Source: Bacteroidales bacterium
GTDB lineage: Bacteria; Bacteroidota; Bacteroidia; Bacteroidales; VadinHA17
Assembly: GCA_003141415.1 (NCBI GenBank)
Contig: PLLX01000077.1
Location: 7,120 to 49,342, forward strand
Reading direction: 5' to 3'
Length of the DNA: 42,223 bases
Positions 7,370-21,964 of the stretch are shown one piece after another. The notes beneath the pieces are model-generated. The model was not told where the DNA came from. It worked only from the letters and a program-made list of their open reading frames with translations, and did not search any database. Both the position numbers and the translations under genes were made by a program. The first letter of the stretch is position 1. Every line of letters starts with the position of its first letter.

Positions 7370-7999
7370 GTGGAAAAGCAATCGGATTTAATATCAGATG
7401 GAGCCAGACTTCCGGTAGTAGAGGAGTTTTTTTCTTTGCAGGGAGAAGGTTATCACACAGGAAAAGCAGCATACTTTATCAGATTAGGAGGATGCGACAT
7501 TGGCTGTAACTGGTGTGATTCACGTTTTTCCTGGAACCCGAATTTACACCCAACAGTTGAAACAAAAGCTATAATCGATCGTGTTATTGAATCAGGCGCA
7601 GATTCGGTGGTAGTTACCGGTGGCGAACCGCTTATGTGGACGCTAGATATCTTATGTAATGGATTAAAAAACAAAAATATCAGTACATTTATAGAAACTT
7701 CAGGAGCATATCCATTAAGCGGAAGATGGGACTGGATTTGCCTTTCACCGAAAAGAAACATGCCCCCGGTCACTGAAATATGTAAAGTAGCTGATGAATT
7801 AAAAGTAATAGTCCAGAATGAAAATGATTTTGAATGGGCAGAAAAGTATCATGGAATGGTCAGTGGTGAATGCAGATTATATCTTCAACCTGAGTGGAGC
7901 AGATTTGAATCCATTATTCCTGAAATAGTTGAATATATCAAGAAGAATCCAACCTGGAGAATTTCACTTCAGGCTCATAAATATATGCATATTCCATGA
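7370..7999 (+). CDS. queE: 7-carboxy-7-deazaguanine synthase (radical SAM)
   Basis: The 209-residue product uses S-adenosylmethionine and a 4Fe-4S cluster to convert 6-carboxytetrahydropterin to 7-carboxy-7-deazaguanine, a step in queuosine precursor synthesis. The cluster motif is C42-x3-C46-x2-C49 in GGCDIGCNWCD. The substrate-end block LPVVEEFFSLQGEGYHTGKA precedes it, SVVVTGGEPLMW follows, and the family ending SLQAHKYMHIP is complete. The start is a GTG at 7370; no in-frame ATG precedes the conserved LPVVEEF block. It lies 18 bases after the nucleotidase and 7 bases before the next gene. No other queuosine genes are in the window. Confidence 0.95.
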   Translation: MEKQSDLISDGARLPVVEEFFSLQGEGYHTGKAAYFIRLGGCDIGCNWCDSRFSWNPNLHPTVETKAIIDRVIESGADSVVVTGGEPLMWTLDILCNGLKNKNISTFIETSGAYPLSGRWDWICLSPKRNMPPVTEICKVADELKVIVQNENDFEWAEKYHGMVSGECRLYLQPEWSRFESIIPEIVEYIKKNPTWRISLQAHKYMHIP

Positions 8000-8006
8000 T
8001 TCGGGT

Positions 8007-9944
8007 ATGAAGAACATTTTACCTATATTTATTCTAATAATCTATTGCTTATCCTCTCCGGTTTGTCTTTCCCAGGGTTTGCATACTTCATCAGACAAAG
8101 CCCTTAAGATATATAAGGAAGGTGTTTCTGCCTTCGATTATCTCGATTTCCATAAAGCTGAAATCGATTTTAAAGAAGCTATCTCAATAGATGATAAATT
8201 TTATGAAGCTTATATGATGCTTGGGGAATTAATGTCAAAGCAAAACAGGTTTAGCGAAGCTTCATTAAACTATAAGACAGCAGTAAAAATAGATTCTCTG
8301 TTTTTTAAACCTGTATTTTTCAATCTGGCAAATGCAGAGATGATGTCGGGAGATTATTTCAATGCACTGATTCATTTTAATGTTTATCAGTCGCAGAAGG
8401 GAATGTCATCCATGAACAAGATTGCTGCTACAAAGAGAATAAAAAATTGTGAATTTGCTATTAATGCTATGAAGAAACCGGTTCCGTTTAATCCGGTAAG
8501 TGTAGGAACCGGAATAAATACAATTGATGATGAATACTGGCCATCGATAACTGCAGATGGTCAAACACTTATGTTTACCAGACAGCCAAATTTAACTACT
8601 AATCCGGGATTTAAAGGAGTTGTCCAGGAGGATTTTTATATAAGTTATTTTTCTGACAATGCATGGCAAAAAGCATTTAATGCCGGGGCTCCGTTGAATA
8701 CAATCCAAAATGAAGGAGCTCAGACTCTTTCTTCTGATGGGAGCTATATGTATTTTACGGCATGCAACAGGCCCGGGGGGTTAGGAAATTGTGACCTGTA
8801 TTTTTCAGCTTTTAAAAATGGAAAGTGGTCTGAACCAACTAATCTGGGTGCTCCTGTTAATACAAGCCACTGGGAATCAACGCCCTCAATCAGTGCGGAT
8901 GGCAAAGCACTTTTCTTTTCGAGCAGCAGGCCCGGCGGTTTTGGTGGCAAAGATATCTGGTTAACAAGATTAAATGATAAAAATCAGTGGACAGAACCAG
9001 TAAACCTTGGAAGCATTATTAATACGGATGGGGATGAAATGTCGCCCTTCATACATTTTGATGGTAAGACACTCTATTTTGCTTCTGATGGCAGGGTCGG
9101 AATGGGAGGATTTGATCTTTTTGTGACCAGGCTTAAGGATGACAGTACGTGGACCGAACCTCAGAATCTTGGTTATCCTATTAACACCTATAATGATGAA
9201 ATGGGGCTTATAATTGAGTCAGGCGGCCAAAAAGCTTATTATTCATCAATAAGAGATAAGTCAAAAGGAAAGGATATTTTTTCCTTTAACCTTTATGAAG
9301 CGGTCAGGCCCAATCCGGTATCTTATATGAAAGGCAAAGTGTACGATAAAGAGACAGGTAAGCTATTAAAGGCAGATTATGAGCTAATTAATCTTTCAAC
9401 TGGAAAAATAATAATAAAAAATGTTACCGATGAAACTGGTAATTTCCTGGTTTGTCTTCCTTCAGGATATAATTACGGGATTAATGTCAGCAAACCTGGT
9501 TACCTTTTTTATTCCGAAAATTTCATGTTTGAAGGGATACACACGGCTTCTAAGCCTTTTATTAAAAGAATAATTCTGAATCCTGCTGTTGTAGGAGAGA
9601 AGATGCAGCTTTCAAATGTGTTCTATGAAATCGACTCCTGGCAATTAAAGAAGGAATCATTGACAGAATTAGATAATCTGGTAACGCTTCTGTCAGAAAA
9701 TAAAAACCTTATTATGGAAATTGCCGGTTATACTGATTCTACCGGATCAGTACAATATAATATGGCCTTATCTGAAAAAAGAGCTTTGTCGGTTGTTAAT
9801 TACCTAATAAAGAAGGGGATTTCTTCGGACAGGCTTAAGTATAAAGGATATGGGAACACTTCACCCCTTGGTGATAATGTGACCATTGAAGGTAGAAAAT
9901 TAAACAGGAGAACAGAAGCAAAGATTATTGAACTGAAAAAATAA
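8007..9944 (+). CDS. TPR-PD40 propeller-OmpA domain protein, PorE-like architecture
   Basis: From the ATG at 8007 the product has 645 residues. It has an N-terminal signal peptide ending near PVCLSQ, then TPR repeats (about residues 30-150). A PD40/WD40-like propeller follows, with repeated ISADGKALFFSSSRPGGFGG-type blades (about 170-420), and then a carboxypeptidase-regulatory-like beta domain (about 430-525). The C-terminal OmpA peptidoglycan-binding domain has GYTDSTGSVQYN and LSEKRALSVVNYL. This order matches PorE (PG1058) of the type IX secretion system. Bacteroidota carry many paralogues, so function is not settled. The frame is open upstream to a TTG at 7929, but that would overlap queE and bury the signal peptide. 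A hairpin follows the stop. Confidence 0.88.
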   Translation: MKNILPIFILIIYCLSSPVCLSQGLHTSSDKALKIYKEGVSAFDYLDFHKAEIDFKEAISIDDKFYEAYMMLGELMSKQNRFSEASLNYKTAVKIDSLFFKPVFFNLANAEMMSGDYFNALIHFNVYQSQKGMSSMNKIAATKRIKNCEFAINAMKKPVPFNPVSVGTGINTIDDEYWPSITADGQTLMFTRQPNLTTNPGFKGVVQEDFYISYFSDNAWQKAFNAGAPLNTIQNEGAQTLSSDGSYMYFTACNRPGGLGNCDLYFSAFKNGKWSEPTNLGAPVNTSHWESTPSISADGKALFFSSSRPGGFGGKDIWLTRLNDKNQWTEPVNLGSIINTDGDEMSPFIHFDGKTLYFASDGRVGMGGFDLFVTRLKDDSTWTEPQNLGYPINTYNDEMGLIIESGGQKAYYSSIRDKSKGKDIFSFNLYEAVRPNPVSYMKGKVYDKETGKLLKADYELINLSTGKIIIKNVTDETGNFLVCLPSGYNYGINVSKPGYLFYSENFMFEGIHTASKPFIKRIILNPAVVGEKMQLSNVFYEIDSWQLKKESLTELDNLVTLLSENKNLIMEIAGYTDSTGSVQYNMALSEKRALSVVNYLIKKGISSDRLKYKGYGNTSPLGDNVTIEGRKLNRRTEAKIIELKK

Positions 9945-9946
9945 AA

Positions 9947-9977
9947 AAATGGCTGTTTATTGGTAAAACAGCCATTT
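9947..9977. terminator. Bidirectional hairpin terminator
   Basis: AAATGGCTGTTT at 9947-9958 pairs perfectly with AAACAGCCATTT at 9966-9977 around a 7-base loop, giving a 12-bp stem. Read on the minus strand it is followed by a run of T, so it is a classic intrinsic terminator for the kinase gene. For the plus-strand OmpA gene the T tract is only the three bases of the stem. Confidence 0.8.
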
Positions 9978-10028
9978 GCTCTCACGCTGATTGAATTCAG
10001 ACATCGAAAATAATAACGCTTGCTTTTA

Positions 10029-10790
10029 TCAGATGGCGATCATGGTATTAACATATTTATTTATATTGATATCGGAGTTTACTATCACTTTGGCAGGAAT
10101 AGAAAAATAAATTCCTGTTCCGGTAAGCCCGTTACATTCAATGCAGATAGTCCCACCCAACATTTGGATTAGCTTCTTGGCCAGGGTAATATTGATAGCA
10201 GTATATGTATCATTATGTAGAATAAGAGATTCATTCAAATCTTCTGTTTGAAGAAATTCTTTGCATTTGAAATAACCCTGGCCGGAGTCGAGAATATAGA
10301 AGTTTACTTTATCGTCCCTGAGAAAGTACCCGATCTTTACATACCCTGATTTTGTGTTTTTTATTGAATTCTGGAACAGACTGCGAATTACCCTGTAAAT
10401 CTTGTTCTTGTCAATAATAACTTCAGCAGAATTTGAGAATTGTATTTCAGTTACGAGTTCCAGATCTTTATGACCTTCTTTATGTAGTTCTTCCCTGAAT
10501 TCCAAAAGAAGGTCATCTAGAAAACTGTCGAGTTTGCATATTTTTGAATCAGCTTTTGAATTACCCGTATCAATTATTGCCGAATCAAGAAAACTATCGA
10601 ACAGACCTATTAATTGTTCACATGCATTTAATATCTGGCTGCTGAATTCTTCACGGTCTGAATTATTGCTGCAACTATCTTTCATCAGAAATGAAAATGC
10701 AACAATCGCATTCATATGTGTTCTCATCTCATGGGACATCCCTGTAAGAACTGTTGGACAATTTATCATATTATTATTCGATGAGTTCAT
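10029..10790 (-). CDS. Soluble sensor histidine kinase, no input domain
   Basis: The 253-residue product consists only of a dimerisation/phosphoacceptor domain and a HATPase domain. The H box is GMSHEMRTHMNAI with H20; the Pro usual after RT is replaced by His. The N box is QNSIKNT, the G1 box DSGQGY, and the G2 region GTGIYFSIP. There is no membrane segment, PAS or receiver domain, so it must take its signal from a partner protein. It follows the anti-sigma-like TPR gene by 79 bases on the same strand and ends at a strong terminator. A GGA-type ribosome site lies before the ATG at 10790. No response regulator adjoins it; the receiver at 3874-4260 is only a distant candidate. Confidence 0.88.
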   Translation of the reverse strand: MNSSNNNMINCPTVLTGMSHEMRTHMNAIVAFSFLMKDSCSNNSDREEFSSQILNACEQLIGLFDSFLDSAIIDTGNSKADSKICKLDSFLDDLLLEFREELHKEGHKDLELVTEIQFSNSAEVIIDKNKIYRVIRSLFQNSIKNTKSGYVKIGYFLRDDKVNFYILDSGQGYFKCKEFLQTEDLNESLILHNDTYTAINITLAKKLIQMLGGTICIECNGLTGTGIYFSIPAKVIVNSDININKYVNTMIAI

Positions 10791-10869
10791 ATTGTTCCTA
10801 ATTAACTGATCTTCAATTGTGAGTTATTGTCACTTTTTGAATCGTACATTTATATTGGGTCCCAGTTAT

Positions 10870-11619
10870 TTACCTGAGTCCCCTGATTATCTTTTTTGCA
10901 TCATCTTTATAAATGCCACCCTCTTTTACAATTAATTTAAAAAGTTGTTTTGCCTTATCTGTTTCATTGGTGTTCAGATAACATAAGGCGAGATACCACT
11001 GTGCCTGATCAATGTAAAGGTTGTTTTTGTCATCAATCACCTTACCAAATGATTGTTTCGCCTCGGGATATTTCTTTTCTTCAAAATTTGCGACTCCTTT
11101 TAATAAGACAGTCTGCATATCATTAGGTTTGTTTTCAAGCACCTTGTTAAAAAGAATCGCGGCTTTCTCATAATCATGGGTATTATAAAACTCCAGGGCC
11201 AGTGAGAAATCAGCCTCTGTTTCAGCATGAGCTGACCTTTGACTTGTTGGAGGTTCATACGCTTTATAATATTGTTTCATTATTTTTTCTCTGCTCAGAT
11301 TCTTCCCCGAAAACAAAGTAATGCTTCCAATTAGGACAAGACCTGCAAAAACAGCAGCATATCTAATGTAAGTTGTTTTCTTAGACTTTTTTACCTGTTG
11401 CTTTACCTCTTTTCGTTGATTTTCAATTTGAGAAAGCTTACTTCTTAATGAGATTACATTCTGGTTCTTAAGAATCTCATCTGTACGCTTCCTGAGATGT
11501 ACCTCATTTCTGAGTTTATCGTTGCCTTCGAGTTCTTTCTGGAACCATTGTTTTTCTGCCTCACTCATCTCGCCGGCATTATACCTTTCGATGAAATATG
11601 AAAAATCAATTGTTTTCAT
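10870..11619 (-). CDS. Single-pass anti-sigma-factor-like protein with periplasmic TPR
   Basis: The 249-residue product has three parts. Residues 1-60 resemble the N-terminal helical module of Bacteroidota anti-sigma factors (FIERYNAGEMSEAEKQWFQKEL). A basic stretch (KKSKK, 77-81) precedes one membrane helix at about 87-104, predicting the N-terminus inside. Residues 130-249 hold about three TPR repeats that would lie in the periplasm. No zinc-binding HxxxCxxC motif is seen. It is encoded near an ECF sigma gene (15281-15892) and a TPR-CHAT protease, a grouping that suggests the N-terminus binds the sigma factor. Sigma binding is inference; membrane topology and TPR content are visible. Confidence 0.8.
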   Translation of the reverse strand: MKTIDFSYFIERYNAGEMSEAEKQWFQKELEGNDKLRNEVHLRKRTDEILKNQNVISLRSKLSQIENQRKEVKQQVKKSKKTTYIRYAAVFAGLVLIGSITLFSGKNLSREKIMKQYYKAYEPPTSQRSAHAETEADFSLALEFYNTHDYEKAAILFNKVLENKPNDMQTVLLKGVANFEEKKYPEAKQSFGKVIDDKNNLYIDQAQWYLALCYLNTNETDKAKQLFKLIVKEGGIYKDDAKKIIRGLR

Positions 11620-11722
11620 GGATATAAAATATTATTACATTTAAAAAAATCGTATATTTTCTTTCTACCTCTAAAGAGTAAAACAAATTACTCAATATCA
11701 GCAGTATAGTTTCAATATTAAG

Positions 11723-11737
11723 TGCTTCATTGAAGCA
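11723..11737. promoter_or_regulatory. Perfect short inverted repeat, possible operator
   Basis: TGCTTCA and TGAAGCA are separated by one base in the region upstream of the anti-sigma-like gene. It has no T tract and lies about 100 bases before that gene's ATG, so it could be a protein-binding site. No TAnnTTTG element is seen next to it. Confidence 0.3.
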
Positions 11738-11800
11738 TGCTATTTGTTATATCTTATAATAGGCCAAAACTTAATAATTCACCAACATTATTAAAAATTA

Positions 11801-11820
11801 GTTTACCTGTTTTGGTAAAC
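11801..11820 (-). terminator. Intrinsic terminator of the GG-leader peptide gene
   Basis: GTTTACC and GGTAAAC form a perfect 7-bp stem around a 6-base loop. On the minus strand the hairpin is followed by TAATTTTTAA. It lies 18 bases after the stop codon of the small peptide gene, which supports that gene being real and separately terminated. Confidence 0.6.
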
Positions 11821-11837
11821 AGAATGTATATATGTTA

Positions 11838-11972
11838 TCAGAGTATGACCGGAGGCATTACAGTTTTTATTATCGGGTCATTATCACCACCACGAACACA
11901 AACCATTTCTTCAGTTGAAAGTGCAAACTCAGTGAAAATGTCATTTGTCAATTTGGAATTTATGGTTTTCAT
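11838..11972 (-). CDS. Double-glycine leader secreted peptide precursor (44 aa)
   Basis: An ATG at 11972 opens a 44-codon frame ending in TGA at 11838. The leader starts MKTINSKLTNDIFTEF and ends LSTEEMVCVRGG, which fits the double-Gly consensus of Bacteroidota precursor peptides (LS.EEM...GG). The predicted mature peptide after G29 is DNDPIIKTVMPPVIL, 15 residues with no Cys. The partner enzyme is close by: a C39-peptidase ABC exporter at 16011-18197 with its adaptor. A hairpin terminator follows the stop. No strong ribosome site is visible. The longer plus-strand frame over the same bases (11737-12093) has no recognisable features and I treat it as a shadow. Cleavage and export are inferred; the motif is seen directly. 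Confidence 0.72.
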   Translation of the reverse strand: MKTINSKLTNDIFTEFALSTEEMVCVRGGDNDPIIKTVMPPVIL

Positions 11973-12149
11973 AGCTTTTTTATTAGTTAAGGTAATTCTT
12001 AATTCAATTTCTATACTACTACATGTCGGAGGATACCGTTTTGTGACACGAAAAAATCAATTATTTTTGAATTATTTTTTTATCTACACATAATGAGGCA
12101 ATTAGAGAGTACAATATTTTTATAAATAATGAATTTGATTTGGTTTTAT

Positions 12150-12157
12150 TATCTTTG
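12150..12157 (+). promoter_or_regulatory. Putative -7 promoter element (TATCTTTG) of the CHAT gene
   Basis: An exact TAnnTTTG match 54 bases before the ATG, identical to the element before the cobalamin riboswitch. TTTG copies lie upstream, but not at the usual 19-base spacing. Confidence 0.5.
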
Positions 12158-12203
12158 ACCAGGAAAAACATTTGGGGAACCTCTAAAACATTGAAACATT
12201 TTC

Positions 12204-15200
12204 ATGATTTTTCATAAAGAATTTTTAGGATATATTTTATTTATTTTTATTTCTGCCGGATTCCTTCATACAGCTGTTATTCATGGGAAAGATCTCTCTG
12301 TTGCAGCTTCTGGCTTGAATAATCTGGTAGTGACTTCAAATCTCGATTCCCTGAATAAAAGCTCAATAGAAATAGAACAGCTAAATGCATATATTAAAAG
12401 TCTTCTGGCAAAAAGAGCTTTATCGGAGTGCAGATTAACAGTTGAAAAAATACTGATGAAAATAAGTGCTGATAATATTGGTGATAGTACTTTATCTGAA
12501 TCCTATTACCTCATCGGAATATATCATTCGTTTACAAGGGATTATAATGAAGCCATTCATAACTTAGATCTTTGTATTTCAATAAAAGAGAAACATAAGG
12601 AATATGATAATCGTTATGTCAAAGCACTTTACAATCTTAGTGTGGGATATGCTAATCTCGGAGATTTAAATAAGTTCGAATATTATGCTTTGAAATCTCT
12701 TGAGCTCGGGAAAGTAATATATGGTGAATCAAATCCGGAGCTTTTAATTTCATATTTATCTCTGGTAAGTGCATACATAGATCAGAAGGAATATGAAAAG
12801 GCAATAACCACTACAAATATCGCATTAACTATAGCCATTAATAATTCTGATAAAGTACCTCCTGCTATGCTGGCCGATCTTTATTATAACTTAGGCGCCT
12901 GTTATAACAGACTGGCTGACTACTCAAAAGCAAAAATCTACCTGGATAAAACAGAATCAATCTATAAGAATTCTGCTTTGGATCAAAGTGACGGCTATAT
13001 AAATTTGATGAATGGTTTAGCACTAACTTATACTGCACTTGATTTTGCTCCTGAAGCAGGTAAGTATTACGAGAAGGGGGTAGCACTGGCTATTTCTAAA
13101 AATTCATCACTGGCTTTTAACATTATAAACAGCTATAGTATATTTCTTGCGGGTGATAAAAAAGCAAAAAAAGGAGAAAGGTTACTTAAAGACGCACTTG
13201 ACCGGGCAAAAGTCTCATATAAACTTTATCCACTTAACTACTTTGAAGTTCTCAATAATTATGCAGGTTATTTACGGGAAAACAAGATTGACAATAAAAA
13301 ATCTATTGAATGTTATGAAAAGTGTGTTGAATATGTGAAAAACAATGAACAGGACCTTTTTTTAAAAACCTATGTTTATATGGGTTATTCTCAAGCATTA
13401 GAGGAAGCAGGTGAGCCCGAGAAGGCTCTGGATATTATCCAGTCGTTGCTCTTTTCGGACCGGGAGAGAAGCCATATGAGCGGACCCTGTGAAAATCCTC
13501 CTCTAGAGACATTAAAACCTGATATAACATTTTTGAAGATTCTTAAGGTAAAATATAATATTTTATGGGATATATATAGAAAGAAGAATGACCATAGAAC
13601 TCTTGAAGCTGCCTCAAACACTTCAGAATTAATAGTTTCTCTGCTCGATAAAGTCAGAATTAATATAAGTGAAGAAGAGAGCAGATTAATATTGGGTGAT
13701 AAGTACAGAGATTCCTATCTTAATACAATACGTGATTTTAATCTTCTTTATAGTAAAACTGCTGATCGACATTATCTTGAAAAAGCATTTGAATATTCAG
13801 AAAAAAGCAAAGTTGCAGACTTGCTGACTTCTACAAGGGAGCTAAAAGCTACCCAGTTTAATATTCCATCAGATATCGGGAACTTTGAAAGGGAGTTGCA
13901 AAGGGAAATAAGTCTCATTAATGCTCATATATCTGATGAATCATCGAGTGAGAAACCAGATATGCTATTAATTGCTAAATGGAAAGAAAACCTTTTTAAA
14001 TATAGCAGGAAAAGGGATTCTCTGATTTTAGTATTTGAAAAACAATATCCTGGTTACTATGCTATAAAGTATAATACTCATATGATTGGTCTTAAGGATA
14101 TTCCTAAGATAATTGGCCAAAATGGGAATTACATTAATTATGTTATGTCCGATACTGCACTTTATATTTTTATAGTTAACAACAGAAATCAACAATTACT
14201 TGCGCTTCCTGTCGATTCTTCATTTTTTAATGACATAAAGCAATTCAGAAGTTTGTTATCAATGCCGTTGCCTTCAGAAAATGCCACATTGAAATTTAAA
14301 GAATTTCAGACCGTTGGTTACAGATTGTATAAGATCCTCATTGATCCGGTCAGATCCTATCTTATTTCTAATAAGCTATTTATATCTTCAGATAATATTC
14401 TTTCATATCTGCCATTTGAAACTATACCGACATCGACTGTTCCCGGAGAAGGGATACGATATAAGGAATTAAGTTATCTTATGAACGATTTTGATATTTC
14501 ATATACTTACTCTTCAACTTTTATGGCAGAATCAGAAAAAAAAGAATACAGCAGAAGTAACAGATTAATTGCGTTTGCTCCTGATTATCCCGAACCAATT
14601 GATATCCAATCAGCATTAAGTTCAAGACAAGGCGGAATGGGAATTCTGAACGATCTTCCTTTTGCACGGCAGGAGGCAAAGTTCGTTTCAGATATTACCG
14701 GTGGAACACTATTTGAAAATAGCGAAGCAAAAGAATCAGTGTATAAAAAAGAAGCAGGCAAGTATGACATTATCCATCTTGCTATGCATACTCTGCTGAA
14801 TGATAAAGATCCTATGCATTCAACATTGATCTTCAGTCAGCGAAATGATTCTACAGAAGACGGTTATCTTAAAACATTTGAGATTTACGGCATTCCTCTT
14901 AAGGCAAAAATGGTTGTTCTCAGTTCGTGCAACACAGGGACCGGGCAGTTATATTCAGGAGAATGTATTTTAAGCCTTGCACGAGGCTTTATCTATTCAG
15001 GGAGTCAATCGGTAATAATGTCTATGTGGGAGATTGAAGATAAATCAGGAACAGAGATTGTGAAAATGTTCTATAAAAACCTTAAAAAAGGATATACGAA
15101 AAGTGTTGCATTAAAAAGAGCAAGGATTGTTTTTTTAAAAAATGCTGATCAGTTGCGGTCTCACCCGTACTTTTGGTCCGCTTTAGTGGTATATGGAAAT

Positions 15201-15308
15201 AATACGCCATTATACTATTCAAATAAGCTGAGAATAACTATTATAGCAATTGTTATAATTTTGTTTTTATCTCTGGGAATTCATTTCTGGAAACGAAAAT
15301 ACTCCTGA
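12204..15308 (+). CDS. Exported TPR-CHAT caspase-like protease with C-terminal membrane anchor
   Basis: The 1034-residue product starts with a hydrophobic signal segment (about residues 5-28). TPR repeats fill about residues 80-470, and a helical linker leads to a CHAT domain at about 700-1005. The catalytic pair is visible: His in HLAMH (H858 or H862) and C909 in LSSCNTG. A final transmembrane helix (about 1009-1026) ends in the basic tail WKRKYS. Signal plus C-terminal anchor predict that TPR and CHAT both lie in the periplasm, an unusual place for a caspase-like protease. CHAT proteases cleave specific protein targets, for example TPR-CHAT in type III-E CRISPR. Its 3' end overlaps the sigma gene by 28 bases, tail to tail. 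The substrate is unknown. Confidence 0.9.
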   Translation: MIFHKEFLGYILFIFISAGFLHTAVIHGKDLSVAASGLNNLVVTSNLDSLNKSSIEIEQLNAYIKSLLAKRALSECRLTVEKILMKISADNIGDSTLSESYYLIGIYHSFTRDYNEAIHNLDLCISIKEKHKEYDNRYVKALYNLSVGYANLGDLNKFEYYALKSLELGKVIYGESNPELLISYLSLVSAYIDQKEYEKAITTTNIALTIAINNSDKVPPAMLADLYYNLGACYNRLADYSKAKIYLDKTESIYKNSALDQSDGYINLMNGLALTYTALDFAPEAGKYYEKGVALAISKNSSLAFNIINSYSIFLAGDKKAKKGERLLKDALDRAKVSYKLYPLNYFEVLNNYAGYLRENKIDNKKSIECYEKCVEYVKNNEQDLFLKTYVYMGYSQALEEAGEPEKALDIIQSLLFSDRERSHMSGPCENPPLETLKPDITFLKILKVKYNILWDIYRKKNDHRTLEAASNTSELIVSLLDKVRINISEEESRLILGDKYRDSYLNTIRDFNLLYSKTADRHYLEKAFEYSEKSKVADLLTSTRELKATQFNIPSDIGNFERELQREISLINAHISDESSSEKPDMLLIAKWKENLFKYSRKRDSLILVFEKQYPGYYAIKYNTHMIGLKDIPKIIGQNGNYINYVMSDTALYIFIVNNRNQQLLALPVDSSFFNDIKQFRSLLSMPLPSENATLKFKEFQTVGYRLYKILIDPVRSYLISNKLFISSDNILSYLPFETIPTSTVPGEGIRYKELSYLMNDFDISYTYSSTFMAESEKKEYSRSNRLIAFAPDYPEPIDIQSALSSRQGGMGILNDLPFARQEAKFVSDITGGTLFENSEAKESVYKKEAGKYDIIHLAMHTLLNDKDPMHSTLIFSQRNDSTEDGYLKTFEIYGIPLKAKMVVLSSCNTGTGQLYSGECILSLARGFIYSGSQSVIMSMWEIEDKSGTEIVKMFYKNLKKGYTKSVALKRARIVFLKNADQLRSHPYFWSALVVYGNNTPLYYSNKLRITIIAIVIILFLSLGIHFWKRKYS

Positions 15309-15892
15309 TATTCAGGATCTTCTTTCATAAGTTCGAGTAGAGCTTCTTTGCACATATATTTTTTTCTTCTGGCATAAACTTCATTTTTAAGATTCATTTT
15401 CAATGCAATCTCTTCATAAGAAAGTCCATCGGAGAATAAATTCAACACCATCTGTTGATCAGGTTTTAATTTTTGAAATACTCTGCTGATAATCCTTTCA
15501 AGAATCGGATCAGACTGTTCTTCCGTTCCCTCCTCTTCAGGAACGTCAATCTTCAGTTCTATCGTTTTTTGCTTTTTTCTAAGTTGTGCACTCCAGACAT
15601 TACGGGCGATTCCAAAAAAGTAACCTTTAAGGTCTGTTGTAAGATGAAGGTTATCGTCTGTGATCTGATTGTAAAGTACAATTATTGTATCCTGGAATAC
15701 ATCGGAAACATCTTCATCGGAACCGCTATTACCAAGAACATGATTCTTAACTGTTTGAAAATAATTGTCATAAAGCCAATTCAGAACTTTATCATCCTGA
15801 TTTCGCACTCCATTTATTATGTTAATATCGGATAATTTATTAAACAACCCCTTTTGGTTAGACGAATCAAATGGCAAATATAGTATTTCCAA
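15281..15892 (-). CDS. ECF-type RNA polymerase sigma factor
   Basis: The product of up to 203 residues has sigma region 2 at about residues 28-100 (VLNWLYDNYF, DVFQDTIIVLY, GYFFGIARNVW) and region 4 at about 135-195 (LKPDQQMVLNLFSDGLSYEEIALKM). It is therefore an alternative sigma of the extracytoplasmic-function group. No ATG lies before region 2. The start is probably TTG at 15892, or TTG at 15847, which would give 188 residues. The minus strand at 15882-15875 reads TATATTTG, so a promoter inside the longer frame is possible and would favour the later start. It is divergent from the exporter genes, suggesting that it controls them. The anti-sigma candidate is at 10870-11619. Confidence 0.9.
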   Translation of the reverse strand: MEILYLPFDSSNQKGLFNKLSDINIINGVRNQDDKVLNWLYDNYFQTVKNHVLGNSGSDEDVSDVFQDTIIVLYNQITDDNLHLTTDLKGYFFGIARNVWSAQLRKKQKTIELKIDVPEEEGTEEQSDPILERIISRVFQKLKPDQQMVLNLFSDGLSYEEIALKMNLKNEVYARRKKYMCKEALLELMKEDPEYQEYFRFQK

Positions 15893-15975
15893 AATCCAAA
15901 ACTCTTTTTTATAAAGCCTGAAGTTCTGATTTTATCTGAAACATGGGATTATCTTAATCAAAATATAAATATCTT

Positions 15976-15982
15976 TACTTTG
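15976..15982 (+). promoter_or_regulatory. Possible -7-like element before the exporter gene
   Basis: TACTTTG is one T short of the TAnnTTTG consensus and lies 28 bases before the ATG at 16011. The imperfect match leaves room for dependence on another sigma factor, such as the neighbouring ECF protein. Confidence 0.3.
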
Positions 15983-16010
15983 TCTATAAATCAATTTCCG
16001 GAAACCTCAA

Positions 16011-18197
16011 ATGTCTTTCCCTTTTGTAAAACAACCTGACGCAATGGATTGCGGACCAGCCTGCCTTAAAATGGTTGCAGGATTTTACAAAATGAATTTT
16101 TCCCTTGAATCTCTAAGAAAAAAGTGTTACATAACCAGGGAAGGAGTCTCATTTCTGGGACTTTCTGAAGCTGCTGATTCTTTGGGTTTTAGAACACTTG
16201 GTGTGAAGATCCCTTTTGAAATAATGAATGAGAATGTTCCTCTGCCATGTATTGTGCATTGGCGGCAAAAACATTTCATTGTCGTCTACAAAATCAAGAA
16301 TGATAAAATCTGGGCAGCGGACCCGGGAATTGGGCTGGTAACATTCAGTAATGAGGAATTTGTCCAAAGCTGGGCTTCTACTATTGTTGAGGGAAAACCT
16401 GCCGGCCTTGTGCTGATAATTGAACCGACACCATCTCTTTTTAAGAATGAGAATGAAAAGGAAAAGACAAACGGGTTTAAATTTCTTTTCAAATATTTTC
16501 GTCTTTACAAGAAGTATTTTTATCAGCTTGTTCTGGGTTTGGTCCTGGGAAGTTGCATTCAGCTGGTGATACCATTCCTTACTCAAGCTATTATTGATAT
16601 TGGCTTAAATAATAACGATATAGGGTTTATTTATCTCATTCTTTTTGCACAGTTAGCGCTGGTTTTTGGAAGAATGTCTGTTGAGTTTATAAGAGGATGG
16701 TTGCTGCTTCATATTGGTTCAAGAGTGAATGTAGCTGTAATATCAGGATTTCTTCAAAAACTGATGTCTTTGCCCGTTGCTTTTTTTGATACAAAACTGA
16801 CCGGTGATATTCTTCAACGCATTGAAGATAATAACAGGATCGAAGAGTTTCTTACTTCAGCCAGTCTCAATATTTTGTTTTCTTTTTTCAATCTTGTTGT
16901 CTTTGGAATTGTACTGGCAGTTTTTAGTCTTAAGATTTTAGCCCTCTTTTTAACCGGGTCAGTTCTATACATTGTTTGGGTTTCGATATTTATGAAATCA
17001 AGAGCCAGGCTTGATCATCAGCGCTTTAAGCAGATGTCTGTTTCAGGAAACAAGCTTATAAATATTGTTAATGGAATGCAGGAGATCAAACTGACACAAA
17101 GTGAATTAAGCATGCGCTGGGACTGGGAAAAGCTCCAGGCTACCTTATTTGGTCTAAAGGTAAAAGGATTGAGCATAGTTCAGTATCAATCTGCCGGCGC
17201 AACATTTATTAATGAAGTAACTAATGTTCTTATTACAATTGTAGCAGCAACTGCAGTTCTTAAAGGTAATATGACCCTGGGTATGATGCTTGCCGTTCAG
17301 TTTATTATAGGTCAGTTGAATGTACCAGTCAGTCAGATAATTGGTTTTTTCCGCATGTCTCAGGATGCAAAAATGAGTCTCGACCGGCTGGCTGAAGTCC
17401 ATAACCTTGAAGAAGAGGAACCTGATCCGGAAGTCAAAGTGCATAAACTTCCTGATAAAAAAGACATCTATTTTAATAGTCTTTCCTATCAATATGAGGG
17501 CCCGCGATCACCATTTGCTTTAAAAGATATTGACCTGTATATTGAAGAAAATAAAATAACTGCAATTGTCGGAACCAGTGGCAGTGGTAAAACAACTTTG
17601 TTAAAGATGCTTCTGGGTTTCTATCATCCCGTTGCAGGTGAAATACTTATTGGCGACTTACGTTTGACTAATCTAAGTCTTAAAGTCTGGAGGGCAAAGG
17701 TTGGAGCCGTTATGCAGGATGGCTTCTTATTCCCCGACACAATTGCAGCAAATATTGCTCCAGGATCGCAAGAAATAATTGAAGAAAGACTAATTAAGGC
17801 AGTTGGTATTGCAAATATTAAAGGATTTATTGAGTCTCTTCCGTTGGGATATAATACAAAAATAGGGGCGAATGGTCATGGATTAAGTGAAGGTCAGAAA
17901 CAAAGGTTGCTCATTGCCAGGGTGATTTATAAGAATCCCGATATTATAATTTTTGATGAAGCGACCAATTCTCTTGATGCCAATAATGAAAAGGTAATTG
18001 TAGAAAACCTTCAGGAATTTTTTATGGGAAAGACAGTTATAGTAGTTGCACACCGTCTCAGTACTGTGAGAAACGCCGATAAAATTGTTGTTCTTGATAG
18101 TGGCAGGATAATTGAAACCGGTACCCACGAATCGCTCATCGCAGCAAGAGGAGCTTATTTTAATCTTGTAAAGAATCAACTTGAACTGGGTAATTAG
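16011..18197 (+). CDS. Peptidase-containing ABC exporter (C39 peptidase, PCAT/bacteriocin type)
   Basis: The 728-residue product combines three modules. Residues 1-130 are a C39 cysteine peptidase with C14 in QPDAMDCGPACL, H88 in KHFIVVY and D104 in ADPG, so the catalytic set is complete. Residues about 165-450 are the ABC transmembrane domain. Residues about 480-720 are the ATPase, with Walker A GTSGSGKTT, signature LSEGQKQR, Walker B IIIFDEATNSLD and the H-loop AHRLST. Such proteins cut a substrate after a double-Gly leader and export the mature peptide. The small precursor at 11838-11972 is the only GG-leader gene I found nearby. The HlyD-type adaptor follows after 9 bases. Confidence 0.96.
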   Translation: MSFPFVKQPDAMDCGPACLKMVAGFYKMNFSLESLRKKCYITREGVSFLGLSEAADSLGFRTLGVKIPFEIMNENVPLPCIVHWRQKHFIVVYKIKNDKIWAADPGIGLVTFSNEEFVQSWASTIVEGKPAGLVLIIEPTPSLFKNENEKEKTNGFKFLFKYFRLYKKYFYQLVLGLVLGSCIQLVIPFLTQAIIDIGLNNNDIGFIYLILFAQLALVFGRMSVEFIRGWLLLHIGSRVNVAVISGFLQKLMSLPVAFFDTKLTGDILQRIEDNNRIEEFLTSASLNILFSFFNLVVFGIVLAVFSLKILALFLTGSVLYIVWVSIFMKSRARLDHQRFKQMSVSGNKLINIVNGMQEIKLTQSELSMRWDWEKLQATLFGLKVKGLSIVQYQSAGATFINEVTNVLITIVAATAVLKGNMTLGMMLAVQFIIGQLNVPVSQIIGFFRMSQDAKMSLDRLAEVHNLEEEEPDPEVKVHKLPDKKDIYFNSLSYQYEGPRSPFALKDIDLYIEENKITAIVGTSGSGKTTLLKMLLGFYHPVAGEILIGDLRLTNLSLKVWRAKVGAVMQDGFLFPDTIAANIAPGSQEIIEERLIKAVGIANIKGFIESLPLGYNTKIGANGHGLSEGQKQRLLIARVIYKNPDIIIFDEATNSLDANNEKVIVENLQEFFMGKTVIVVAHRLSTVRNADKIVVLDSGRIIETGTHESLIAARGAYFNLVKNQLELGN

Positions 18198-18206
18198 CAG
18201 CGATAT

Positions 18207-19496
18207 ATGAAAGATCAAAAACCTGAGATATTATATTCCGACCCTGTCAGAGAGATTATGGGAAAACCTCCGAGAAGAATTTTGCGGTGGGGTACGACGA
18301 TTATGCTTTTAGTTTTTGTTTTCTTTATTCTCTTTGCATGGTTAATAAAATATCCAGATACAATACCCGCTCCGGTTGAAATTACTACAACTAATCCTCC
18401 TGTAACTCTTGTTACTAAAATAACAGGACATATAAACTCCTTTTTTGTAAAAGAAAGAGAAAAGGTTAATGCTGGTCAATTGGTTGCTGTTATGGAAACT
18501 ACCGCCTCAATAAACGAAATTGAATTACTTAAACGAACCGTTGATTCTATTAAGAATCCTGAATTACTTTCTTATCGTTTGCTTCCATTATTCTCGGAGC
18601 TCGGTGAACTTCAGGGTTTCTATGGCGCTTTCCTGAAAAACCTTTCTGATTTAAATAACTATGTAACTAATGATTTAAATGGTAGCAATATTGCTTCGCT
18701 GATGGATGAGATAAATGGAATACAGGAATTTATCACCAGATTGAGTGTAAAGGAAAAATTGTACTCAGAAAATCAGCGACTTGAGGCGAAAATATTTAAA
18801 AGAGATTCCTCTCTTTTTTCTGGTAATGTAATACCTGAAAGCGACCTCGAAAGATCACACCAATCGTTGTTAAGAGTAAATATTGAACTGCAGCAGGCTC
18901 GACTTGACCATTCCTCGAAATCGATTGAGCTGGCTGAAAAACGTCAACTTCTTCAGGATTACCGTATAACCAGGATTGACGAGAGAGAAAAATTTGTTTC
19001 AGCTTTACGCGAATCCTTTTTAAACCTGAAGGCACAAATAAATTTATGGGAAAACACTTATTTGCTTATTTCCCCGGTAGAGGGTATCGTTTCCTTTACA
19101 AAGTACTGGAGTGCAAATCAATCAGTAGTCAAAGATGAACCAGTCGTCAGTATAGTTCCTCTCAAAGCTGGCAGTTTTCTTGGCAGGATAAACCTGAAGA
19201 TGGAAAGATCAGGCAAAGTGAAAACCGGTCTTTTAGTTAATATTAAACTGAGCGGATATCCATATCTTGAATATGGAATGGTAAGAGGTATTGTAAAATC
19301 CAAATCTCTGGTGGCGGCAAGTGATGCCTATATTATAGAAATTGAGCTTCCGGATGGCCTTAGGACATTATATGGAATAAACCTTGATTTTACTCAGAAT
19401 ATGCAGGGTACAGCGGAAATAATTACTGATAATATACGGCTTCTTCAAAAGATAGTTAATCCTTTCCGTTACCTGGTTTCAAAGAACAGGAAATGA
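18207..19496 (+). CDS. HlyD-type periplasmic adaptor of the peptide exporter
   Basis: The 429-residue product has a cytoplasmic N-terminus and one membrane helix at about residues 29-47. A lipoyl-like half follows (TKITGHINSFFVKEREKVNAGQLVAVME), then a long coiled-coil hairpin (about 90-270), the second lipoyl half (LISPVEGIVSFTKYWSANQSV) and a beta-barrel end. It should link the ABC exporter to an outer-membrane channel, so the mature peptide would be released outside the cell. It starts 9 bases after the exporter stop, clearly one operon. No TolC-like gene is in the window; a general TolC may serve. Confidence 0.93.
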   Translation: MKDQKPEILYSDPVREIMGKPPRRILRWGTTIMLLVFVFFILFAWLIKYPDTIPAPVEITTTNPPVTLVTKITGHINSFFVKEREKVNAGQLVAVMETTASINEIELLKRTVDSIKNPELLSYRLLPLFSELGELQGFYGAFLKNLSDLNNYVTNDLNGSNIASLMDEINGIQEFITRLSVKEKLYSENQRLEAKIFKRDSSLFSGNVIPESDLERSHQSLLRVNIELQQARLDHSSKSIELAEKRQLLQDYRITRIDEREKFVSALRESFLNLKAQINLWENTYLLISPVEGIVSFTKYWSANQSVVKDEPVVSIVPLKAGSFLGRINLKMERSGKVKTGLLVNIKLSGYPYLEYGMVRGIVKSKSLVAASDAYIIEIELPDGLRTLYGINLDFTQNMQGTAEIITDNIRLLQKIVNPFRYLVSKNRK

Positions 19497-19503
19497 CTTG
19501 TTT

Positions 19504-19683
19504 TTATTTTTTTGAGTAGGGCTCATAATCTTCATCTTTTGATGATGATGGAAAAGAGGAGCCTGAAGAAGGTTTTGTTTCAGTTCCGGATTTACCTTTA
19601 TCTTTCTTGATATATTTCTGATATAATCTGAATGCTAAAAACGCTATTACTGCAGAAAAGAGAATAATTTGAGATTGATGCAT
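19504..19683 (-). CDS. Small single-pass membrane protein (59 aa)
   Basis: An ATG at 19683 opens 59 codons ending in TAA at 19504. The N-terminal half is one membrane helix (QIILFSAVIAFLAFRLYQKY, about residues 5-24). The rest is a Lys/Ser-rich soluble tail ending KDEDYEPYSKK. I recall similar short proteins with a DYEPY-type tail in other Bacteroidota, but they have no known function. The minus strand at 19750-19743 reads TATATTTG, giving a plausible promoter about 60 bases upstream. The stop lies 7 bases from the HlyD-type gene's stop, tail to tail. The small size and the absence of other support limit confidence. Confidence 0.6.
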   Translation of the reverse strand: MHQSQIILFSAVIAFLAFRLYQKYIKKDKGKSGTETKPSSGSSFPSSSKDEDYEPYSKK

Positions 19684-19742
19684 ATAGGTCTTCGATTTAA
19701 TTTCAGTTTTTTAGAACTTTTGCACTGCATGAAATTTTCATT

Positions 19743-19750
19743 CAAATATA
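19743..19750 (-). promoter_or_regulatory. Putative -7 promoter element of the 59-aa membrane protein gene
   Basis: The minus strand reads TATATTTG, an exact TAnnTTTG match, about 60 bases before the ATG. No -33 TTG is visible at the usual spacing. Confidence 0.4.
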
Positions 19751-19788
19751 TAATTTATCTCACTAATATCTTATAAAGGTTTATTGAA

Positions 19789-19823
19789 AAGAAGGATCTA
19801 AAAACTAAAATATTATCCTTCTT
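19789..19823. other. Hairpin in the gap before the DUF349 gene
   Basis: AAGAAGGAT at 19789-19797 and ATCCTTCTT at 19815-19823 form a perfect 9-bp stem with a 17-base AT-rich loop. There is no following T run. The 295-base gap from 19684 to 19978 otherwise shows only the promoter at 19743-19750 and no further coding frame. Confidence 0.4.
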
Positions 19824-19978
19824 ACACTATCAGGTTGTCTTAATATCTGATTCTCACATTTATTTATGTCAAAACTTTGAGTATTATTAAATATTTCGAT
19901 ATTTTCGTACTCTGAAATTCCCATGGATTGTCATGGTGTAAATTACTGCTAAAGAGCTGAACTATAAAAGGATTGATT

Positions 19979-21964
19979 ATGACCAAGAAAAATCCGGATG
20001 ACTCTGTTCATAAAGAACAATCCGGGGCGAGTGAAAACGCCCTCGGAACTGAGGATGCCACACAAGCGGAAAACGCGCAAGAACCTGACTCTCTGGACGA
20101 TGGTGAAAAAACAGAAGAAAATACAGAGAAAGTCACTGAAAATGATAAGAATAAACAGGATGAAGAATCTGGGCCAACTGAGAAAGTGGAGCCTGAAGCT
20201 GAAGATTCTCACACTTTTGAAGATATAGAACTTCCTCAGGTTGATTATTCAGGATACACCAAGCATGAGCTTGTTGAAACATTAGGCCTTATTATAGAAA
20301 ACCGGCCTACTATTGAGATAAGGGATGATGTAGAACGTATCAAAATCCTCTTCTATAAGAAATTAAAGAGTGAATCGGAAGAAAGAAAAAATAAATTTCT
20401 TGAGGGCGGCGGAAAGATTGAAGATTATAGACAGTGGGTTGATCCTGATGATGCACGTGTAAAACATCTGCTCGAAAAATATAAAGAGAAAAAAACTGAT
20501 TATAATAAGGTTCAGGAAGCTGAAAAATATGAGAATCTTAAGAAAAAGTACGATATAATTGACAAAATCAAGGATCTTGTAAACAGGGAAGAATCGATAA
20601 ATAAAACTTTTCATGATTTCAGATCCCTCCAAAATGATTGGCATTCAATTGGTGTTGTTCCCCAGACTTCACTGAAAGATCTTTGGGAGAATTATCATCA
20701 TTATGTCGAAATCTTCTATGATTATATTAAAATCAATAAGGAACTAAGAGACCTTGATCTAAAAAAGAATTTAGAGGTTAAAGTTTTATTATGTGAAAAA
20801 GCAGAAGAACTTCTTCTTGAGCCAAATCCAGTTAATGCTTTCAGATCTTTGCAGGATTTTCATAATCAGTGGCGTGAGATAGGACCTGTACCACAGGAAT
20901 CAAAAAATGAGATATGGGAAAGGTTTAAAGAGGCGACTTCTCAAATTAACAAAAGACATCATGAATACTTCGAAAAACAGAAAGATGATCAGAAGAAAAA
21001 TCTTGATGCTAAAATAGCTCTTTGTGAAGAAGTAGATGCTATCAATTTGCTGGAATTTAAAAACTTCAAGGAATTTGATGAAAGAGCTGATAAGGTTGTA
21101 GAACTGCAGAAAATGTGGCGCACGATCGGATTTGCTCCTAAAAAGCAGAATAACAAAGTTTATCAGAGATTCAGAGATACATGCGATGCCTTCTTTGAGA
21201 AAAAAAGAGGCTTCTATGCAGATAACAAAGAGATTCAACTGAATAACCTGCAGCTAAAGACCGAATTATGTATGCAGGCTGAGGCTCTTCAGGAAAGTGA
21301 AGATTGGAAAGCAACATCTGATGCCCTAATTAAACTTCAGAAAGAATGGAAAGAAATTGGCCCTGTGCCACGTAAACAATCTGAAAGATGCTGGAAAAGA
21401 TTCCGAAAAGCATGTGATCACTTTTTCAACCGGAAGACTGAATTCTTTGCAGCTCTTGATACTTCATATGAAGATAACCTTAAGGCAAAACTTGGTGTAA
21501 TTGAAGAACTTGAAAAATTCGAATCAGGGACTGATGTTCCGACTGCATTCGAACGTTTAAAAGAACTGCAAAGGAAATGGACTGAGATTGGTTTTGTTCC
21601 CTTTAATCTTAAAGATGAGATCACTAATAAATACAGGGTTGCCATCAATAAGGAATTTGATAAGCTGAAAATAGGGGATGAGGATAAAAGCATTCTTAAA
21701 TACAAGACCAAACTTGATAACCTTAAAGCAAATCCGAAAGCCTCAAGAAAAGTCCGGAATGAGAGAGATAAATTCTTTACAAAGATTAAACAGCTTGAGG
21801 GCGACATCGTATTATGGGAGAATAATATTGGATTTTTTGCAAAATCCACCAATGCTGATACACTGAGAAGAGAGGTAGAGGAGAAAATAGATAGTGCAAA
21901 AAAACTAATTAAAACTCTTGAAGAAAAAGTCAAGATGATAGACCAGTCAGGCCTTGATGATTAA
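19979..21964 (+). CDS. DUF349 repeat protein, coiled-coil
   Basis: From the ATG at 19979, seven bases after AAAGGA, the product has 661 residues. The first 80 are highly acidic and probably disordered. Then come about five DUF349 repeats of roughly 70-80 residues, each with a W...GPVP or W..IG.VP core (WHSIGVVPQ, WREIGPVPQ, WRTIGFAPK, WKEIGPVPR, WTEIGFVPF). A coiled coil closes the protein. DUF349 proteins are cytoplasmic, common in Bacteroidota and not well characterised. The frame could open at a TTG at 19973, but the ATG has the ribosome site. pyrG begins 42 bases later, so the two may be cotranscribed with yidC. Confidence 0.88.
   Translation: MTKKNPDDSVHKEQSGASENALGTEDATQAENAQEPDSLDDGEKTEENTEKVTENDKNKQDEESGPTEKVEPEAEDSHTFEDIELPQVDYSGYTKHELVETLGLIIENRPTIEIRDDVERIKILFYKKLKSESEERKNKFLEGGGKIEDYRQWVDPDDARVKHLLEKYKEKKTDYNKVQEAEKYENLKKKYDIIDKIKDLVNREESINKTFHDFRSLQNDWHSIGVVPQTSLKDLWENYHHYVEIFYDYIKINKELRDLDLKKNLEVKVLLCEKAEELLLEPNPVNAFRSLQDFHNQWREIGPVPQESKNEIWERFKEATSQINKRHHEYFEKQKDDQKKNLDAKIALCEEVDAINLLEFKNFKEFDERADKVVELQKMWRTIGFAPKKQNNKVYQRFRDTCDAFFEKKRGFYADNKEIQLNNLQLKTELCMQAEALQESEDWKATSDALIKLQKEWKEIGPVPRKQSERCWKRFRKACDHFFNRKTEFFAALDTSYEDNLKAKLGVIEELEKFESGTDVPTAFERLKELQRKWTEIGFVPFNLKDEITNKYRVAINKEFDKLKIGDEDKSILKYKTKLDNLKANPKASRKVRNERDKFFTKIKQLEGDIVLWENNIGFFAKSTNADTLRREVEEKIDSAKKLIKTLEEKVKMIDQSGLDD

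Follow-up and report, generated by a model that had tools for sequence, protein, structure and literature searches.

The locus and its genes

We examined a 42,223-nucleotide stretch of DNA (the window; positions 7,120 to 49,342 of contig PLLX01000077.1, assembly GCA_003141415.1) from a Bacteroidales bacterium of the VadinHA17 lineage, whose 5.26-Mb genome comprises 279 contigs and is 82 percent complete. An OmpA-type gene (7929-9944) and, on the other side, a DUF349 gene (19973-21964) flank a locus of seven genes at 10029-19496, in which a protease with tetratricopeptide repeats (TPR) and a CHAT domain, an extracytoplasmic function (ECF) sigma factor, a candidate anti-sigma protein, a histidine kinase and a two-gene exporter accompany a gene for a small peptide with a double-glycine (GG) leader. 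This gene set may be an undescribed peptide-signalling circuit. A Pfam scan and a check of the open reading frames (ORFs) found all seven genes in place. Their positions in the window, with those of the putative promoter and of a small adjoining ORF, are as follows.

10029..10790, minus strand: histidine kinase, cytoplasmic and sensor-less, an optional member (Pfam HisKA; HATPase_c just below cut-off)
10870..11619, minus strand: TPR protein, candidate anti-sigma (Pfam TPR; one transmembrane (TM) segment at residues 85-103)
11838..11972, minus strand: 44-aa GG-leader peptide, leader 1-29, core DNDPIIKTVMPPVIL; divergent from CHAT
12020..12048, minus strand: putative ECF-type promoter of the peptide gene, TGTCACAAA (12040-12048), N12, GACATGTA (12020-12027)
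12204..15308, plus strand: TPR-CHAT caspase-like protease (Pfam CHAT, E 8e-50; AlphaFold2 model and fold matches)
15281..15892, minus strand: ECF sigma factor (TIGR02937 above cut-off; TTG start)
16011..18197, plus strand: C39 peptidase-containing ATP-binding cassette (ABC) exporter, PCAT (Pfam C39, ABC_membrane and ABC_tran in one protein)
18207..19496, plus strand: HlyD-type periplasmic adaptor of the exporter (Pfam HlyD_3; TIGR01843 below cut-off)
19504..19683, minus strand: small conserved membrane protein adjoining HlyD (59-aa ORF, one hydrophobic segment), found in 31/50 orthologous loci; membership uncertain

The peptide precursor reads MKTINSKLTNDIFTEFALSTEEMVCVRGG (leader) followed by DNDPIIKTVMPPVIL (core). 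The sigma factor has both sigma regions 2 and 4 (Pfam, TIGR02937), and the 3' end of its gene overlaps that of the CHAT gene by 28 bp. The PCAT matches solved C39 exporters (4ry2 and ComA 8hf4) over nearly its full length. Neither a sensor region nor a TM segment was recognised in the kinase, and an outer-membrane channel was looked for at the locus only, where none was recognised. Rfam gave no match across 9900-20100. PADLOC had no match for the CHAT, TPR or ECF protein and did not mark the system as defence.

An ECF-type promoter motif precedes the peptide gene

The ECF-type -35 element TGTCACAAA precedes the peptide gene in all 47 main-type regions (the window and 46 loci), and the full motif in 42 of them. 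In the first 40 peptide-CHAT intergenic regions aligned, TGTCACAAA was present in 40/40 and TGTCACAAA-N12-NACATG in 39/40, in the peptide direction only; the motif was found in none of the 40 in the CHAT direction, nor between the TPR and peptide genes (0/40). The nearest thing to a held-out test is a set of seven further peptide-bearing loci outside this first set, one of which (L101) had been seen earlier: TGTCACAAA was present in 7/7 and the full motif in 3/7.

The full motif is unique in the window, and TGTCACAAA-N12-15-ACATG occurs once in the genome that carries it, where the peptide gene is the only motif-linked gene found. A search of ten same-genus genomes gave ten motif matches in eight genomes, and a reversed-pattern control gave none. 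Seven matches precede the peptide gene and the remaining three lie in genomes G025, G010 and G045. In G025 (L073/L239) the motif now stands before the TPR gene, the peptide having been lost; in G010 (L240, contig C1) it stands before another HlyD-PCAT pair at a different place in the genome; in G045 one match precedes an unknown 247-aa protein.

Loci of other families carry a related -35 element (GGTAAC/GGTTACC/TGTCAC) before 15/17 GG peptides as against 4/73 other genes of the same loci, a post hoc pattern written after inspecting the data and matched in L123 and L125 only by near variants. As regards autoregulation of the sigma gene, the motif was absent between the ECF and PCAT genes (0/48), and a related motif lies before the ECF gene in the relatives L229 and L233. 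The CHAT and PCAT genes seem to have house-keeping-type promoters. It is very probable that the ECF sigma factor recognises the motif before the peptide gene.

Conservation of the locus among relatives

The orthologous set comprises 50 loci (L066-L115), 48 from 47 same-genus genomes and two from the same family. The same gene order recurs across these loci, and this recurrence is not chance; the seven genes thus form a real conserved unit, as the preliminary description of this DNA had held. CHAT, ECF and PCAT are present in all 50, TPR in 47, HlyD in 44 and the kinase in 39. The TPR and HlyD misses fall at contig ends, and the kinase is truly absent, the sequence being present, in L073, L094, L095, L101, L103 and L106. 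By motif search the GG peptide was found in 46/50; L074, L081 and L082 are contigs cut at CHAT, and L073 (G025) is a real loss. In one further locus, L080 (genome G042), several stops break the CHAT gene and the ECF frame is shortened, with the peptide and exporter genes open.

Over 36 same-genus genomes, 29 had both a CHAT orthologue and the peptide, two had CHAT alone (G025, and G028 with a contig end), five had neither and none had the peptide alone (Fisher p 6e-5, not corrected for relatedness). Among the five with neither, G006, G030 and G032 gave no CHAT match and G008 and G035 gave weak ones. Since the housekeeping flanks of the locus are also conserved, which indicates shared vertical inheritance, conservation within the genus alone proves little about function, and the loci of other families therefore carry more weight.

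Properties of the GG peptide

Within the genus the core is 14-22 aa long, Pro-rich and usually ends in PP[I/V]xI; in 40/43 cores the C-terminal end is PP[IVTK], then at most two residues, then I, L or Y in the last position. The median core length is 16-18 residues. The median core charge is -1 in the set of 43 and -3 in a set of 17, and Cys occurs in 1/43 and 2/17 cores, respectively. The pN/pS ratio is 0.33 for the leader and 0.52 for the core (69 close pairs among 17/39 sequences, those of equal length), values that indicate a peptide evolving as a protein under purifying selection. The mature product is best read as a short linear peptide. NCBIfam and PHROGs have no family for it. The strict GG regular expression missed the paralogue peptides in L009 and L201 (L200, L202 and L203 were fetched later), and a relaxed scan gave many false ORFs that had to be judged by eye; the counts below therefore use an objective fixed rule.

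Topology and fold of the CHAT and TPR proteins

The CHAT protein of the window has a hydrophobic segment at residues 7-26, a catalytic pair H862/C909 and a C-terminal TM segment at 1006-1031. The catalytic residues are kept in 131/131 (H862) and 130/131 (C909) proteins. This layout agrees with the earlier description of a caspase-like protease predicted to be periplasmic, a location that we consider likely. Fold matches to the TPR region of its AlphaFold2 model include the pheromone receptors NprR and Rap, along with many other TPR proteins. The transmembrane anti-sigma protein DdvA (PDB 8rw5, 8rot) also came out near the top when the CHAT model was compared by Foldseek, a possible kinship; it was absent from the 50 structure matches listed in a second look, and no paper on it was found.

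The TPR protein consists of about 84 N-terminal residues that are predicted to be cytosolic, the TM segment and a C-terminal TPR part, and hydropathy gives one TM segment in 94 of 100 homologues. Its orientation in the membrane is a prediction. The anti-sigma-like character first suggested for it fits this layout.

Peptide, CHAT and exporter in other families

CHAT searches covered 116 relatives, 295 genomes of the class and 393 of the order. We fetched 94 other-family or paralogous loci, with stretches of up to ~8-10 kb a side, and annotated them with profiles built here; 76 had 600 bp or more of upstream sequence and a CHAT protein of at least 800 aa, and the 18 that did not were set aside. 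These loci are not all independent, L009 and L200-L203 being one paralogous lineage.

GG-type ORFs are concentrated before CHAT genes. By the fixed rule, the 1.5-kb stretches upstream of CHAT, which together hold 40 kb of gene-free DNA, contain 20 of them, and 209 kb elsewhere contain two; the densities are 0.49 and 0.0096 per kb, a difference of about 50-fold. The rule admits one false match (ribosomal protein S12 in L204) and omits L123, whose doubtful GG peptide is kept among the 17 of the promoter and tree comparisons. In the 76 loci, GG peptides occur in 16/51 with ECF or TPR genes nearby as against 1/25 without, this one being the ribosomal protein S12. The reverse search led to the same place: a peptide profile run on 60 genomes gave 39 hits, nine outside the main locus, and seven of these nine were within ~2.6 kb of a CHAT domain (four in G090 and one each in G022, G082 and G017), two of the seven (L199, L125) being already known from the CHAT side. 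The other two, G090:C180 and G020:C199, have no CHAT match on the contig. In G090 the four CHAT-linked hits lie on contigs C100, C128, C133 and C173, and that on C180 is the fifth peptide.

The exporter is associated with the peptide. A PCAT lies near 5/17 GG-bearing and 0/59 GG-less loci (p 3e-4); in L218 the C39 protein stands only at the edge of the fetched stretch, and L197, which has a PCAT and a cut upstream side, was set aside. Four rearranged loci, L155, L199, L221 and L230, each hold peptide, exporter, CHAT, TPR and ECF genes. The order is HlyD-PCAT-peptide divergent from CHAT, then TPR-ECF, in L155, L199 and L230, and HlyD-PCAT-HK-TPR-peptides in L221 (HK, the histidine kinase). The kinase is also present in some other-family loci. 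Export of the peptide by the PCAT is very likely. One C39 gene was found for two peptide-CHAT sets in G022 and three C39 matches for five peptides in G090, which suggests that one exporter may serve several sets. The genome of the window itself has three C39 genes. It also carries another peptide-CHAT-TPR-ECF-HK set, L009 on contig C55, and the stretch fetched there contains no exporter.

A CHAT tree (FastTree, 72 rows) was limited to loci with ECF, TPR, GG or adjacent cargo of the type IX secretion system (T9SS) type, and of the main-type loci 14 were kept in addition to the window. On this tree, which has many long branches, the partner type changes at least five times and the PCAT six times.

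The preliminary description had named CHAT neighbourhoods as a check for accidental adjacency, which would appear as CHAT, sigma and TPR genes mostly without exporter or peptide. The result was split: 35/51 modules lack a GG peptide and most have no exporter in the fetched stretch, but 17/34 peptide-less modules have a secreted gene before CHAT, and exporters keep to the GG-bearing loci as given above. The adjacency thus does not look accidental, and the exporter appears as an optional, peptide-linked part. Exceptions to the peptide-exporter link are L073, with an exporter and no peptide, and L197.

Other secreted partners before CHAT

The secreted-type N-terminus of the gene directly before CHAT in those 17 of 34 modules was assigned by hydropathy and partly by eye. 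In ten of these modules the gene encodes one and the same type of protein, ~400-440 aa long. All five proteins of this type that were scanned have Por_Secre_tail above cut-off, together with SdrD_B (two below cut-off); dockerin was found in three (one below cut-off) and cohesin in one. By profile, such T9SS-type cargo adjoins CHAT in 12/72 tree rows, and it never shares a locus with a GG peptide (0/53). A GGTTACCTTT-type site precedes it in 5/10 module loci scanned, in a scan that gave 23 sites in total, several of them before short meaningless ORFs. In L121, L225, L227, L229 and L233 an SdrD_B/Por_Secre_tail protein behind a GGTTACCTTT-type site replaces the GG peptide before CHAT.

More distant modules have other neighbours. 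A subtilase (Peptidase_S8) lipoprotein-like gene lies directly upstream of CHAT in L190 (6893-8206) and L193 (11075-12376), and L191 (4772-11141) has two tandem pairs of a small secreted protein and CHAT, the small genes standing behind almost identical GGTAACATTTTAAAG sites. In most of the loci L172-L188, ECF, TPR and CHAT are present and no partner was recognised.

A proposed circuit

We propose that these genes form an ECF signalling module that works by proteolysis and exports a mini-peptide of its own. The one-TM TPR protein would hold the ECF sigma factor as an anti-sigma; once free, sigma would drive the peptide gene through TGTCACAAA-N12-GACATGTA; the neighbouring PCAT would use its C39 domain to cut after Gly-Gly and, together with HlyD, would carry the short linear product into the periplasm or beyond it. 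This product would then meet the TPR superhelix of the membrane-anchored CHAT protein, probably as its cognate ligand. Activated CHAT would then cut the periplasmic part of the anti-sigma and free more sigma, closing a self-amplifying loop. Taken as a whole we put this proposal forward tentatively, as one that falls somewhat short of probable. Its parts differ in strength. The parts themselves, their conservation, the promoter-like motif and the associations of the peptide with CHAT and with the exporter can be read from the sequences. The part that runs from sigma to peptide to exporter, which is predicted from family knowledge, is well supported. The part from peptide to CHAT to anti-sigma is our inference: binding of the peptide to CHAT is plausible but slightly doubtful, and cleavage of the anti-sigma by CHAT is an evenly balanced prediction. 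The latter draws on a precedent, the TPR-CHAT protease Csx29, which according to the available text of PMC10028731 cuts Csx30, an inhibitor of an ECF-like sigma factor, under RNA control.

Several results weigh against this proposal. The preliminary description had the sigma factor inducing exporter and peptide alike. The conserved promoter upholds this for the peptide; the motif is missing from the 130 bp before the PCAT gene in all the ECF-PCAT stretches (0/48), so that induction of the exporter is without support at this locus, the second HlyD-PCAT pair of one relative being the exception. Two of the ten same-genus genomes, G022 and G029, gave no match to the full motif, and the GG peptide of L193, which lies away from CHAT, has no -35 pattern and is thus an exception to the promoter rule. 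Very few genes were found in the regulon, which leaves a signalling loop with no clear output, and no response regulator was recognised at the locus. The N-terminal hydrophobic segment passes a simple cut in 81/131 CHAT proteins, with start codons uncurated. The matches listed for the AlphaFold2 model of the TPR protein are of TPR type, and none of those listed is to its N-terminal domain. In the fold matches of CHAT, LGN ranks above NprR, and TPR superhelices resemble many proteins. L073 has lost the peptide and kinase and kept exporter, CHAT, TPR and ECF. CHAT/ECF/TPR modules without a recognised GG peptide are common (the 35/51 above), so that the core switch does not depend on the peptide. 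Finally, the tree gives 2-4 independent pairs for peptide versus exporter (p 0.5-1), too few to decide.

A bolder extension, which we regard as rather doubtful, would have each GG mini-peptide act as a ligand reserved for one periplasmic TPR-CHAT protease, which would open an ECF sigma that makes more of that peptide, with one exporter serving several pairs and the peptide being one of several interchangeable secreted ligands of a class-wide CHAT/ECF switch. If true, it would be a categorically new class of Gram-negative peptide communication. Even the loop alone, if real, would make a caspase-like protein of the periplasm the receptor of a secreted peptide, and would provide a sigma switch in which the secreted partner can be swapped from one family to another. 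To our knowledge, most CHAT proteases outside CRISPR and gasdermin systems have neither inputs nor substrates assigned to them, and few peptide circuits of the autoinducing kind have been described in Bacteroidota. Each step is directly testable, since the peptides are short, the promoter motif is sharp and the active site of the protease is fixed.

Alternative explanations

The main rival to the signalling loop is that CHAT is not a receptor and instead processes a secreted product: the sigma factor would answer an envelope cue and make cargo, which CHAT would cut in the periplasm. The product before CHAT is indeed secreted and of changing type (GG peptide, SdrD_B/Por_Secre_tail protein, subtilase lipoprotein, or the small secreted proteins of L191), GG and T9SS-type cargo were not found together in any locus, and the latter can stand behind a promoter of the same style. 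However, cores of the median length found here leave little to process after C39 cleavage, and the constant anti-sigma/sigma pair beside CHAT would be left without a reason. We consider this account unlikely.

Improbable, in our judgement, is that the peptide is an antimicrobial of the bacteriocin kind with CHAT, ECF and TPR as its regulators. A GG leader with a C39 exporter is a usual arrangement of Bacteroidales bacteriocins in the available texts of PMC6671954 and PMC10352776, but the cores described here are short, Pro-rich, near neutral to acidic and rarely contain Cys, their C-terminal motif is conserved genus-wide, several peptide-CHAT pairs can occur in one genome, and none of the locus genes was recognised as an immunity gene or modification enzyme.

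The exporter could also be an unrelated neighbour, the functional unit being only CHAT/ECF/TPR with or without the peptide. In the other families most modules have no exporter in the fetched stretch and 12/17 GG loci lack one; within the genus the gene order is inherited vertically with its housekeeping flanks, and L073 has the exporter and no peptide. Set against this, the other-family exporters were found in GG-bearing loci only and in varied arrangements (L155, L199, L221 and L230, with L218 at the edge), and C39 exporters are known processors of GG leaders. The rearranged loci and the 5/17 versus 0/59 distribution weaken accidental adjacency of the exporter, and we hold this explanation to be very improbable.

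Least credible of all is a circuit for stress or cell death, with CHAT as the executioner and the peptide as a by-product. CHAT proteases do act as executioners in other systems; here the only motif-linked gene found in the genome is that of the peptide, none of the genes at the locus was recognised as a toxin-like effector, the CHAT protein is predicted to be extracytoplasmic, and nothing seen pointed to the programmed-death role that had been entertained at first.

Relation to known systems

In the literature searched, which most subscription papers fall outside, no description of CHAT together with a GG peptide and an ECF sigma factor was found. The type III-E CRISPR system CASP/Craspase (Csx29, Csx30, CASP-sigma) also has a TPR-CHAT protease with a His-Cys pair. 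Here no Cas7-11 or Csx30 was recognised at the locus; unlike Csx29, the CHAT protein is predicted to be exported and anchored, its trigger would be a peptide and not RNA, and the candidate inhibitor in the place of Csx30 is the one-TM TPR protein. The proposed logic, by which proteolysis frees an ECF sigma that a one-TM inhibitor had bound, is shared with the proteolysis of anti-sigma factors in DegS/RseA and RsiW (available text of PMC10028731). The proposed circuit would belong with regulated anti-sigma proteolysis, but differs in its protease, which is of the CHAT class, and in its likely input, an exported peptide whose gene is driven by the sigma factor.

RRNPP receptors such as NprR and Rap are cytosolic and bind a re-imported peptide. 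Their likeness to the CHAT protein is the TPR superhelix, weak evidence since the fold also matches many TPR proteins; here the candidate receptor is predicted to be periplasmic and comes with a protease, and export would be by a C39 exporter.

In heterocyst-forming cyanobacteria, the available part of a paper on HetF/HetC reports that the CHAT protein HetF and the C39 exporter HetC are both needed for one developmental programme; it gives the substrate of HetC as unknown, the peptides PatS and HetN occurring in the same organism. The HetF model scores 13.5 bits against the window CHAT protein (cut-off 1200), a weak similarity. We know of no ECF sigma factor or TPR anti-sigma associated with HetF.

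The GG-leader/PCAT systems (ComA with its competence-stimulating peptide, CSP; bacteroidetocins; Bacteroidales clusters for ribosomally synthesized and post-translationally modified peptides) share the GG leader, the C39 ABC exporter and the adaptor. The main text of the Bacteroidales mining paper does not contain the words CHAT, sigma or caspase. The bacteroidetocins and class II bacteriocins have mature peptides of ~42-48 aa with Cys residues, according to the available text of PMC6671954, against cores of 14-22 aa here and Cys in 1/43. The locus differs from these systems further in that no modification enzyme or immunity gene was recognised, the core is shorter, mostly acidic, Pro-rich and mostly Cys-free, and a CHAT/ECF/TPR module is attached.

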